DNA from: Alphaproteobacteria bacterium
Lineage (GTDB): Bacteria; Pseudomonadota; Alphaproteobacteria; Bin95
Assembly: GCA_022827685.1 (NCBI GenBank)
Contig: JAJEIH010000114.1
Coordinates: forward strand, 1-50,903
Direction: 5' to 3'
DNA length: 50,903 nt
Shown here one piece after another: positions 12,432 through 25,605 of this stretch. Each line of letters starts with the position of its first letter. The first letter of the stretch is position 1. The notes below the pieces were generated by a model that worked only from the letters and a program-made list of their open reading frames with translations, did no database searches and was not told where the DNA came from. Made by a program: the position numbers and the translations under genes.

Positions 12432-13349
12432 ATGACCGCGCTTTCCGCGCGGGAGGTGCGCGAGGCGGCGGCGCTTGTGCGGGAACGGCGGGCGGCGACG
12501 GACCGTGCGCTCAAGCGGCGGGGGCTGACGGTGCTCGCGGTCGGGCTCTCCTTCGGACTGGCGCTGCTGCTCGCCTGGGCCGGCGGCTGGCGGATGGAGG
12601 AGAGCCGCCTCCAGCTTCTCGTCGTGGTCGGCTCCGCCTCCTTCGCGGCGATGCTGGTCTGGGCGCTCGCGCCCTCCCGCCGCCAGCTTCTCGGCGAGAA
12701 GAGCGCGCTCGCGCCGCTGGTGCTGGAGACGCTGGGCGATTTCGACTATGCGCCCGGCGGGCGCATCGCCGAGGACATGCTCGCGCGCTCGCGCCTCTTC
12801 GGCCGCTGGTCGGACTACAGCGGCGGCGACCTGGTGCGCGGCGAGCATGAGGGCCTGCCCTTCGGTTACGCCCGGGCGGCGCTGACGAGGGGCGGCCCGG
12901 CGAAGCTCGAATCGCTGGTGACGAGCGGCAAGGTAAAGGAGGTGTTCCGGGGCGCGGTGCTCGCCGTGGAGGGCCTGCCGCCGGCCGCCGGCACGGCCTT
13001 CGCCGTCACGGACCGGGGCCGGGCGATGGACTGGCTCGCCGACCTCAGCGCCGAAATGCCGGAGCTGCGGCGGCGCGAGTCGGGTGCGCTGGAGGTCTGG
13101 GCCGCGGACCCGGAGGATGCCGGCCGGCTGGCCCGGCCCGAACTGGCGGAGGCGCTGGCAGCGCTCTGCAAGGCGGCGGACGCCGGGTCCGCCGAACTCG
13201 GCCTGCACGGCACCGCCGCGCTGGTGAAGCTCCACACCCGCCGCCCGATCCTGCCCGGCATCGCCGAGGACCCCGTTGACGAGGCCCGCGACCTGCACCG
13301 GGAGATGAAGGCCGCACTTGCCCTTGTCGCCGCCCTGGCGAGGGGCTGA
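12432..13349 (+). CDS. DUF3137 family membrane protein
   Basis: This 305-residue protein has two membrane helices near the N-terminus (about 31-52 and 59-80) and a soluble part with LFGRWSDYSGGDLVRGEHEG, characteristic of DUF3137. The function is unknown. The ATG at 12432 is the only in-frame ATG near the start of similarity. The last 106 bases before the divergent end (13235-13340) recur almost exactly at 15037-15142, in front of the acyl-CoA dehydrogenase gene. This suggests that the gene's original 3' end was displaced by an insertion that supplied a replacement end, so the last two codons differ between the copies. Confidence 0.75.
   Translation: MTALSAREVREAAALVRERRAATDRALKRRGLTVLAVGLSFGLALLLAWAGGWRMEESRLQLLVVVGSASFAAMLVWALAPSRRQLLGEKSALAPLVLETLGDFDYAPGGRIAEDMLARSRLFGRWSDYSGGDLVRGEHEGLPFGYARAALTRGGPAKLESLVTSGKVKEVFRGAVLAVEGLPPAAGTAFAVTDRGRAMDWLADLSAEMPELRRRESGALEVWAADPEDAGRLARPELAEALAALCKAADAGSAELGLHGTAALVKLHTRRPILPGIAEDPVDEARDLHREMKAALALVAALARG
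13235..13340 (+). repeat. 106-bp direct repeat, copy 1 (3' end of the DUF3137 gene)
   Basis: This copy encodes the in-frame C-terminus of the DUF3137 protein. Compared with 15037-15142 it differs at four positions by eye, three clustered near the left end and one near the right end. Beyond the right boundary the copies diverge at once. Confidence 0.9.
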
Positions 13350-13375
13350 GAGGTATTCGAGAAACGGCGCCGGAC

Positions 13376-14950
13376 TCAGGGATACGCCCGGAACGTCCTC
13401 AACCAATGCGCGCGCGGCGGCCGGAAACCAGCCCGGACCAGGCGAGCTTTGGCTTTCAGACTATCTTCGGGCCGAAAATGCACGTCGCTTTCCAGAGTGG
13501 TCGATGATCGGGCGTCCAGATTGAAGGGCGCAAGCCTGACATTGGACGGTCTCTTGTTGAATTCGATAGCCACTTCCACGGTGACGCTGCGAAGCGGGTA
13601 ATCGGTCGGGTTCTCCACGTCCACAAGCAACTGATTGTTCGCAAACACCGGGTTCAGGCGGATATAGCGGCCCGGATTGTCTGCTATATCCAGCATGATG
13701 AAGTCTCTGGACGCCGCCTCTCCGAGGCTTCCGCCCGCGCCTTTGGTGGACCCGAAGAGGCGCTTGGCGTCCGCCCGGTTCCCCTTCGCCATGGCGATTC
13801 TTCCAAGCGTGTAGTTCGCCAGATGGGTCGGCAGCAATCGATTGCTTTGCTCCAGATCTTTCCGGGCCCGGCTTCGCTCCCGCAGCGCATCGCGAGCAAG
13901 GCCGCGCCCCAGGTAATGTCGGTAGTAGCGGGCGTCCCGGTGGACCGCCGCGTCATAGGCGTCCACCGCTTCGCGATAGCGCCGCTGCCGCGCCAGGGCC
14001 TGACCCTTGAGCCCGTGGAACAGGGCTTCTCGGGGTTCCCGCTCAATTGCCTCTTCCAGAAGCCTGAGCGCTTTGCGAGGTTCTGTGTCGAGCAGTTTTT
14101 CGGCCTTGTCCGCCCGGTCGTACGCCGGTTTACGGGCGCGCAGATACGCCAGTCGGCTCCGGTAACGGTCCGCGCCGAGCTCGCCGCCCGGAGGGAAATC
14201 CGCCAAAGCCGCCCGATTCGATTTCACCCGCTCTTTCGATGGAGGGTGGGTGGCGAACAGGCCGCCGAGCCAACCGGGATCCCGCCCATCGGAAAGGGCG
14301 ACGAATTTCTCCTGCAGCGTCACGGCGGCGGTCGTGTCGTAACCCGCCGCGCGCATGTATTTCATGCCGTACCTGTCGGCCGTGCGTTCGTCCGCCCGGC
14401 TGTATCCCCGGTCGATGAGGGCGGAAGCCAATTCGGTGCCGACACCGATGTGGCGCGCATATTTCGAATCCTCGCTCGCAAGCGCGACGCCAAGCGCAAC
14501 CGCGCCGAGTATCAGATCACGGTTCATCGCGCCCACGCCGTGCCTGGCTGCGGCGTGCACGATCTCATGACCGAGCACGGCGGCCAGTTCCGCCTCGTTC
14601 TCCAGTTCGGTCAGGAGGCCGCGATTCACCGCGATCTTGCCGCCGGGCAATGCCCAGGCATTGGGAACGCTGCTGTTCAGCACGACGAATTCGTACGGCA
14701 ACGCCCGGTCGCTGAACCTTGCAACGCTTTGTCCGACGGACGCCACATATGTTTCCAACTGCGGATCGACCGTGTAGCGCCCTCCCGATGCCTGCTGCAA
14801 AGGTCCGTAGTGCCGCCTGCCGGTATCGATCTCGTGTTCGGTCGAAAAGAGCACGAGTTCCTTTTCGCCGGTGACGGGGTTTGCCTCGCAGCCGGCTACA
14901 AGGAGCAGAACCGCCAGAAACGCAAAAGATCGCGACGGTCGAGCTTTCAT
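13376..14950 (-). CDS. M48 family metalloprotease lipoprotein with TPR region
   Basis: The 524-residue protein has a lipoprotein signal with Cys21 (LLLVAGC), then an M48 peptidase domain with the zinc motif HEIVH at 128-132 and the third ligand E188 in SRADERTAD. After it, about 275-400, come TPR-like helical repeats (ALFHGLKGQALARQRRYREA and similar), then a C-terminal beta-rich part. This is the layout of BepA/LoiP-like envelope quality-control proteases. A GGAAG site precedes the ATG; the frame is open further upstream but without similarity. The gene is antisense to its neighbours, has its own promoter-like sequence, is visibly less GC-rich, and is flanked by the 106-bp direct repeat, all signs of insertion. 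Confidence 0.88.
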   Translation of the reverse strand: MKARPSRSFAFLAVLLLVAGCEANPVTGEKELVLFSTEHEIDTGRRHYGPLQQASGGRYTVDPQLETYVASVGQSVARFSDRALPYEFVVLNSSVPNAWALPGGKIAVNRGLLTELENEAELAAVLGHEIVHAAARHGVGAMNRDLILGAVALGVALASEDSKYARHIGVGTELASALIDRGYSRADERTADRYGMKYMRAAGYDTTAAVTLQEKFVALSDGRDPGWLGGLFATHPPSKERVKSNRAALADFPPGGELGADRYRSRLAYLRARKPAYDRADKAEKLLDTEPRKALRLLEEAIEREPREALFHGLKGQALARQRRYREAVDAYDAAVHRDARYYRHYLGRGLARDALRERSRARKDLEQSNRLLPTHLANYTLGRIAMAKGNRADAKRLFGSTKGAGGSLGEAASRDFIMLDIADNPGRYIRLNPVFANNQLLVDVENPTDYPLRSVTVEVAIEFNKRPSNVRLAPFNLDARSSTTLESDVHFRPEDSLKAKARLVRAGFRPPRAHWLRTFRAYP

Positions 14951-14995
14951 TGGGACTTCCGATCTTCGCCTAAGCGATGCGACTGGAATTTCACC

Positions 14996-15023
14996 ATTAT
15001 GCAAGGGCGGTCCCTTGCCGCAA
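14996..15023 (-). promoter_or_regulatory. Candidate promoter of the M48 gene with dyad in the spacer
   Basis: Read on the minus strand, TTGCGG (15018-15023) and CATAAT (14996-15001) are 16 bases apart. A perfect 7-bp inverted repeat, gcaaggg at 15001-15007 and cccttgc at 15012-15018, fills the spacer, an arrangement that could serve as an operator. It lies between the M48 start and repeat copy 2. Confidence 0.45.
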
Positions 15024-15036
15024 GGAAGACAAGGCG

Positions 15037-15142
15037 CACCCGCCGCCCGATCCTTCCGGGCGTCGCCGAGGACCCCGTTGACGAGGCCCGCGACCTGCAC
15101 CGGGAGATGAAGGCCGCGCTTGCCCTTGTCGCCGCCCTGGCG
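15037..15142 (+). repeat. 106-bp direct repeat, copy 2 (orphan 3' end of a DUF3137 gene)
   Basis: This copy keeps the reading frame of the DUF3137 C-terminus and reaches a TAG stop at 15149-15151, but has no gene body in front: similarity stops abruptly at 15037. It sits 34 bases before the acyl-CoA dehydrogenase ATG, the distance expected if it is the original end of the DUF3137 gene. Confidence 0.9.
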
Positions 15143-15184
15143 CGTGCTTAGGCTTTGGCGGCAACGGCAGGAGGGGGAACGCCG

Positions 15185-16375
15185 ATGCAGTTCAGCCGGG
15201 CCGAGGAGGACTTCCGCGAGGAGGTGCGCGCCTTCATTCGCGACGAGTTGCCGCCGGATGTGCGGCACAAGGTGGTCTCCGGCATGGAGATCGCCAAGGA
15301 CGACTACATGCGCTGGCACCGCGCGCTTTACGAACGCGGCTGGGTGGCGCCCACATGGCCGGAGGATCATGGCGGCGCGGGCTGGACGCCCGTGCAGCGC
15401 TACATCTTCGACGAGGAAGCGGGGCTGGCGGGCGCGCCCAGGCTTTCCGGCTTCGGACTCGGCATGGTGGGGCCGGTGCTGATGGCCTTCGGGTCCGAAG
15501 AGCAGAAGGCCGAGCACCTGCCGAAGATCCTCTCCGGCGAGCGCGTCTGGTGCCAGGGCTATTCCGAGCCCGGCTCCGGCTCCGACCTCGCCTCGCTCAA
15601 GACGCGCGCTGTGCAGGACGGCGACGATTATGTCATCAACGGCCAGAAGATCTGGACCTCGCTAGCCCACCATGCCGACTGGATCTTCTGCCTGGTGCGC
15701 ACGAGCGAGGAGCCGAAGAAGCAGGACGGCATCTCCTTCCTGATCTTCCCGATGACGGCGCCCGGCATCGAGGTGCGCCCGATCATCACCATGAACGGCC
15801 TGCGCCATGTGAACGAGACCTTCTTCACCGATGTGCGCGTGCCGGCCTCGAGCCTTGTCGGCGAGGAGGGACGGGGCTGGACGATCGCCAAATACCTGCT
15901 CCAGCACGAGCGGATGAGCGGCGGCGGCGTGGGCGAGCTCAAGACGGCCCTGAAGCGCGTCAGGGACATCGCTGCGGGAGAAGCGTCCGACGGCGGGCGG
16001 TTGATCGACGATGCCAACTTCAGGCGGCGCTGCGCCGACATCGAAATCCAGCTTCTCTCCGTCGAGCAGGTGATGCTGCGGGCGCTGGCCGCCTATTCGG
16101 CGGACCGGGAGCTCGGCGCGCTCACCTCAATGGTCAAGATCAGGCGCAGCGAGGTGCAGCAGGCGATTTCCGAGCTCGGCGTCGAGGCCGCCGGCTACTA
16201 TGCGCTGCCGATGGACGTGAACGCGCTCCGCCACGGCTGGAACGAGGAGCCGGTGGGCGACGAGGCCTTCAACGGCCTCCTGCCGGGCTATCTCTTCCTG
16301 CGCGCCGCCTCCATCTATTCCGGGTCCAACGAGATCCAGCGCAACATCGTCGCCAAACACCAATTGGGGCTCTAG
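15185..16375 (+). CDS. Acyl-CoA dehydrogenase family protein
   Basis: This flavoprotein oxidises an acyl-CoA to the enoyl-CoA and passes electrons to ETF. The 396-residue protein contains the first family signature GYSEPGSGSDLASLKTRA near 120-137, KIWTSLAHHADW at about 155-166, and the C-terminal IYSGSNEIQRNIVAKHQLGL. The chain-length specificity cannot be read from the sequence. A strong GGAGGGGG site lies before the ATG at 15185. Its stop abuts the gpt start with no gap. It stands directly after the orphan DUF3137 3' end. Confidence 0.9.
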   Translation: MQFSRAEEDFREEVRAFIRDELPPDVRHKVVSGMEIAKDDYMRWHRALYERGWVAPTWPEDHGGAGWTPVQRYIFDEEAGLAGAPRLSGFGLGMVGPVLMAFGSEEQKAEHLPKILSGERVWCQGYSEPGSGSDLASLKTRAVQDGDDYVINGQKIWTSLAHHADWIFCLVRTSEEPKKQDGISFLIFPMTAPGIEVRPIITMNGLRHVNETFFTDVRVPASSLVGEEGRGWTIAKYLLQHERMSGGGVGELKTALKRVRDIAAGEASDGGRLIDDANFRRRCADIEIQLLSVEQVMLRALAAYSADRELGALTSMVKIRRSEVQQAISELGVEAAGYYALPMDVNALRHGWNEEPVGDEAFNGLLPGYLFLRAASIYSGSNEIQRNIVAKHQLGL

Positions 16376-25130: not shown

Positions 25131-25180
25131 CCGAAGATTAAAATTTGTTCATATTTTTTGAGATATTTATCTTTTGATAC

Positions 25181-25210
25181 TTGATTTTTGTCGGTTTATG
25201 GTATTATAGA
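25181..25210 (+). promoter_or_regulatory. Candidate promoter in the AT-rich segment
   Basis: TTGATT (25181-25186) and TATAGA (25205-25210) are 18 bases apart; an alternative -10, TATTAT, lies at 25202-25207. Any transcript would begin just before the hairpin at 25223 and run towards the crotonase gene with a leader of over 400 bases. Confidence 0.35.
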
Positions 25211-25536
25211 GCCATAGGTAAGGAAGCGGCATTCGCGAGGCCGCTTCGTTTCGCCGTTCGCGCCGGCGCGAAAAAACCCCTGAGAAACGCACGGGAGAGG
25301 TGCGCCCTGCGTCTCGCGCGTGCAATCAGGCGCACGAACCGCGCCGGCGCGTAACGCGCGCAGGATACACGCGAATCAGGGTCCCGCCGCTCCGGCAACC
25401 GGGCGGCGGGAAGAACAAAACGAAGATGAATCGAAAGGACAGTCCATGCCGAAGACGCAAAGCCCGAGGAACCGAATGGAATACCCGCACCCCATGCCCG
25501 GACAGACCACAGGACATGCGCCCTGCGCATGGAGAT

Positions 25537-25605
25537 CATGACATCCCATGACACATCGCACGGGGTCCCGCCGGCCCGCATGACAAAACATGACATTCCA
25601 TGACA
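25537..25605 (+). repeat. Five CATGACA heptamers with 10-base phasing
   Basis: Exact CATGACA copies begin at 25537, 25547, 25579, 25589 and 25599. Spacing is 10, 32, 10 and 10 bases, so within each cluster they fall on the same face of the helix. The last copy ends 40 bases before the ATG chosen for the crotonase gene. They may be operator sites or a small tandem repeat with an interrupted middle. Confidence 0.7.

Follow-up and report, generated by a model that had tools for sequence, protein, structure and literature searches.

A duplicated gene end around an accessory M48 protease gene: a probable scar of uneven recombination

Introduction

Why should the 3' end of one gene stand twice around a single protease gene, and does such an arrangement mark a mobile cassette? 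This question is raised by the 50.9-kb window (the whole stretch of DNA analysed), in which an M48 protease gene lies between two direct copies, R1 and R2, of the end of the neighbouring gene, hereafter the host gene. Integrative elements with att sites in tRNA genes or other gene ends rebuild the 3' terminus of the gene they target, and the locus resembles them in carrying the host-gene 3' end on both sides of the insert. The original prediction offered two explanations, a gene-sized cassette that restores the end of its target by its own mechanism, or uneven recombination. The locus was compared here in seven congeneric genomes (G001-G007). The genome holding the window is referred to as G000, and all positions are window coordinates.

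Results

Alignment of the two copies placed R1 at 13235-13340 and R2 at 15037-15142, both on the forward strand, with 102 of 106 nucleotides identical (96%), which reproduces the duplication with four mismatches that had been reported by eye. Three of the mismatches fall within the first 26 nt and the remaining one at the 3' end, leaving the differences at the edges and the core identical. A chance repeat was ruled out by this identity, as all other direct repeats of at least 45 nt in the window reach at most 71%. Membership of a repeat family was ruled out as well, since the whole G000 genome contains just these two copies of the 106-bp block and no third.

R1 forms the coding 3' end of the host gene (12432-13349, forward strand), the target of the insertion, and completes its frame as proposed, with a TGA stop at 13347-13349 of the type found in carriers of the M48 gene. 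R2 is an orphan host-gene end which runs into an in-frame TAG (15149-15151), 33 nt ahead of the ATG at 15185 of an acyl-CoA dehydrogenase (ACAD) gene (15185-16375, forward strand; PF02770, PF02771 and PF00441). The host gene encodes a protein of 305 aa with an N-terminal membrane region, and belongs to no Pfam or NCBIfam family. Its earlier assignment to DUF3137 was not borne out, with no such Pfam match even at E=10; the sole Pfam signal was PF22551 (E 0.028, under its cut-off), and the corresponding stretch is a possible peptide-binding chaperone-like region. Orthologues with 80-86% amino acid identity are present in five congeners, and partial ones in two others. The host gene evolves faster than its neighbours, with dS of 0.4-0.5 between most congeners vs 0.14-0.32. 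As had been stated of integrases, no recombinase is present at the locus, the flanking genes tested being metabolic or without known function.

The sole gene between the repeats is, as described before, an antisense gene (13376-14950, reverse strand) for an M48-TPR lipoprotein of 524 aa with the lipobox LVAGC and the zinc motif HEIVH, an instance of HEXXH in the translation. It belongs to Pfam family M48 (PF01435, 120.3 bits, cut-off 20.3), and the protein matched PDB 3c37 (E 4e-26) and BepA (E 1e-15 to 1e-16). With BepA/YfgC (M48 with TPR) and LoiP (an M48 lipoprotein) it has in common the M48 domain with HEXXH, the TPR and the lipoprotein signal; it differs from them in falling far under the NCBIfam BepA and LoiP cut-offs (92.9 bits vs 570 for the BepA equivalog NF052400) and in being an accessory gene at the genus level. 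The dN/dS was about 0.15 against G002 and G005. The lower GC attributed to this gene was apparent in its GC3 (0.730), the lowest among the listed window genes (0.75-0.93), whereas its overall GC of 0.632 is just modestly low. The promoter of its own that had been ascribed to it was not recovered in a search for sigma-70-like promoters; the upstream region (14951-15025, reverse strand) is nevertheless kept in G002 and G005, the blastn alignment reaching about 15025. PADLOC gave no match in support of a defence gene, and Rfam none in the window or in the loci tested. In G003 a relative of the M48 gene (56%) is found at a different locus (L119:6237-7892), and the sequence upstream of it includes a CATGACATTTCATGACAC-like motif, such as also occurs where the dispersed element described below ends.

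Comparison of the congeners revealed several states of the same site. In G007, G006 and G001 the site is empty, consisting of the host gene, one R and ACAD, with contigs that start inside the host gene in G006 and G007. These empty sites are scar-free, and their TAG-ACAD junction is the same as that following R2, in agreement with the proposals that the second copy represents the native end and that the M48 gene is an insertion. In G001, ACAD is internally deleted, with just its first and last parts left (L015:9450-9647), and the empty site is otherwise native. G002 and G005 (the latter with its locus spread over two contigs) carry the host gene, one R, the M48 gene (86-88% nucleotide identity), an unrelated stretch of about 0.5 kb (X), and native sequence again from the TAG. 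In G003 the order is host gene, R, X and ACAD, the M48 gene being absent at the site, and in G004 other genes follow the host gene. The original prediction had named, as an observation that would speak against it, relatives that all carry the M48 gene and both repeats; instead, the relatives differ from one another, R2 is absent from all seven, and none has both repeats. As the M48 carriers G002 and G005 lack a second repeat, the repeat does not move with the gene as its boundary. By this comparison, the M48 gene is accessory, and species of the genus differ in whether its site is occupied or empty.

The two junctions in G000 are of different kinds. On the left, the alignment with G002 and G005 runs from R1 across the host stop codon into the M48 gene. 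On the right, the succession of M48 upstream region, about 11 nt, and the start of R2 is unique to G000, and the filler at 15026-15036 aligns neither to M48 carriers nor to the host gene. M48 carriers and empty alleles are both found in the genus, and G000 combines a left junction that aligns with other carriers and a right one of its own, which fits the pair of one homologous and one non-homologous junction sought in a recombination scar.

Both copies of the repeat carry private bases (in GTT and CTT codons) that occur in no relative, and therefore both derive from one lineage. As R1 is 83-93% alike to all relatives and 96% to R2, this sharing of bases argues for a duplication specific to this lineage. 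Of the four differences between the copies, three are derived in R2, as expected if R2 were a functionless relic and R1, keeping the end of the host protein, were under selection. The pattern has the look of a young, unselected duplicate, and gene conversion of an older one could also give the private bases.

G000 is the sister of G007, as indicated by rpoB with its flanks (96.0% identity, others at most 92.2%) and by a concatenated FastTree phylogeny (support 0.99). Just upstream of R, its host gene is likewise 92% like that of G007 and 76-80% like those of G002-G005. The M48 gene thus sits in a chromosomal background of the empty-site type, and was either added in G000 or lost by G007. The state of the site differs within three sister pairs, the gene being present in G000, G002 and G005 and absent from G007, G006 and G003, respectively; thus, M48-bearing and empty alleles have repeatedly been exchanged or lost. 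Between species, M48 dS was 0.33-0.40, near that of rpoB (0.28-0.35). The value for G000 against both G002 and G005 was 0.40, vs 0.15-0.35 in core-gene comparisons, all dS figures excluding ACAD2 and PRT_SMP, whose reading frame was wrong or mixed. Recent transfer from the species of G002 or G005 was ruled out by this value, and the source of the gene is therefore neither of them.

Sequence X, which precedes ACAD in G002, G005 and G003, contains a dispersed element. With a DNA query, at least 50 matches were returned for G000 and for six congeners; G001 gave 2, and sister genera gave none. With a covariance model of the 173-position core (E ≤ 1e-6), at least 85 copies were counted in G000 and 20-70 in the six congeners among 150 candidates scored per genome, with no copy among the 150 candidates scored in G001. 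One copy of about 0.5 kb lies in the window (about 25131-25605, forward strand), and further ones of about 0.5 kb at L016:6450-6985 and L118:8405-8937. All 21 copies examined in G000 are in or near intergenic DNA, and in about two thirds of them the next downstream gene is co-oriented with the element. The element comprises a TTGAC/TATAnT-like (sigma-70-like) promoter, a conserved GC-rich core (AATCAGGCGCGCGAACCGCGCC) and CATGACA repeats at its end. The core can fold into long helices with little compensatory change, and a 31-aa frame in some copies is under weak constraint (mean dN 0.19, dS 0.27). The element gave no match in Rfam, its core motif gave none in viral contigs, and no paper containing the motif was found in the literature. 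It is an undescribed, genus-restricted, promoter-bearing intergenic repeat, and looks like a small-RNA or mobile-repeat family.

Discussion

The arrangement R1-M48-R2 is probably the scar of an uneven recombination between M48-bearing and empty alleles, with homology at one junction and non-homologous joining at the other. This explanation brings together the observed repeat, the empty sites, two species that have the M48 gene at this site but no R2, and an identity between R1 and R2 that is specific to the lineage; the direction in which DNA was transferred and the enzymology are what we infer. In the G000 lineage, an M48-bearing allele would have recombined unevenly with an empty allele (host gene, R, ACAD, as in the sister G007). 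The homologous junction would lie within R or the host gene, or within ACAD, and the other, from the M48 upstream region to the start of R2 (about 15026-15036), would have been joined without homology. In one possible route, a fragment spanning R, the M48 gene and its upstream region, circularised or one-ended, would cross over in the R of an empty chromosome and thereby duplicate R; alternatively, whatever lay between the M48 gene and ACAD would have been replaced by a fragment of an empty allele. Both routes fit, and neither would require an integrase or recombinase. Uneven recombination, the other of the two explanations first offered, is thus supported by the empty sites together with the one homologous and one non-homologous junction. 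Against this scar stand the dS of 0.40, which equals or exceeds the more divergent core comparisons and points to no recent donor, and the private bases of R1 and R2, which could come from gene conversion of an older duplication.

That same divergence, close to that of rpoB, would suit an R1-M48-R2 arrangement ancestral in the genus, from which G006 and G007 became empty by recombination between R1 and R2, i.e. by precise deletion of the M48 gene; their sites are indeed scar-free, and gene conversion could have kept the copies alike in an identical core with differences at the edges. Such a history would need several losses as well as that of R2 in G002, G005 and G003, where X would have replaced R2 and native sequence restarts exactly at the TAG; moreover, G001 is empty as well and R2 is in no relative, and we regard it as unlikely. 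That three species have the M48 gene at the end of the same host gene, and that the left edge of the insert gives the host gene a new stop (TGA), might instead suggest a dedicated gene-sized mobile cassette which enters host genes at their 3' ends and repairs these with a copy that it carries, its recombinase acting in trans. An element of this kind should bring a repeat at each insertion, yet G002 and G005 have a single R, which argues against a 3'-end-restoring element; the locus also differs from such elements in lacking an integrase. As the 106-bp block is at no other place in the genome, and R1 and R2 are one lineage's sequence and not a donor plus a native allele of different species, we consider the cassette first proposed extremely improbable.

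A merging of strain variants with and without the M48 gene in a metagenome assembly would be conceivable, given that several relatives are known MAGs, that the window genome is probably one too, and that the locus is polymorphic between species. A simple mis-join, however, would not make the unique 11-nt stretch at the M48-R2 junction or the derived bases of R2, and we hold an artefact of this sort to be very unlikely. There is a slight chance that the locus acts as a reversible presence/absence switch, in which duplications of the R1/R2 type would allow the M48 gene to be excised precisely, and its capture and loss, time and again at the same host-gene end, would explain one carrier per sister pair in three pairs.

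The uneven recombination that we favor has parallels elsewhere. In E. coli conjugation, single crossovers of circularised fragments yielded duplications of 109-950 bp (PMC3240628), and there as here (106 bp) an insert lies between direct duplications of part of the target gene, with one junction formed without homology. That case involved an experimental plasmid, whereas at our locus the event is deduced from sequence, which would allow more than one direction and intermediate. In Vibrio T6SS immunity arrays, displaced orphan gene ends have been ascribed to homology-facilitated illegitimate recombination (PMC5361080), and the locus shares with them an anchor by homology at one flank, an illegitimate join at the opposite one, and a displaced 3' part downstream. 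It differs from the arrays in being one protease-gene insertion with no effector-immunity logic, and in that the original gene end is intact in R1.

The more open question is a by-product of this analysis, namely the high-copy, promoter-bearing intergenic repeat confined to the genus. As for the locus itself, it shows that a lone accessory gene needs no cassette machinery to leave a signature like that of a cassette, and that relatives must be compared before such structures are called mobile elements.
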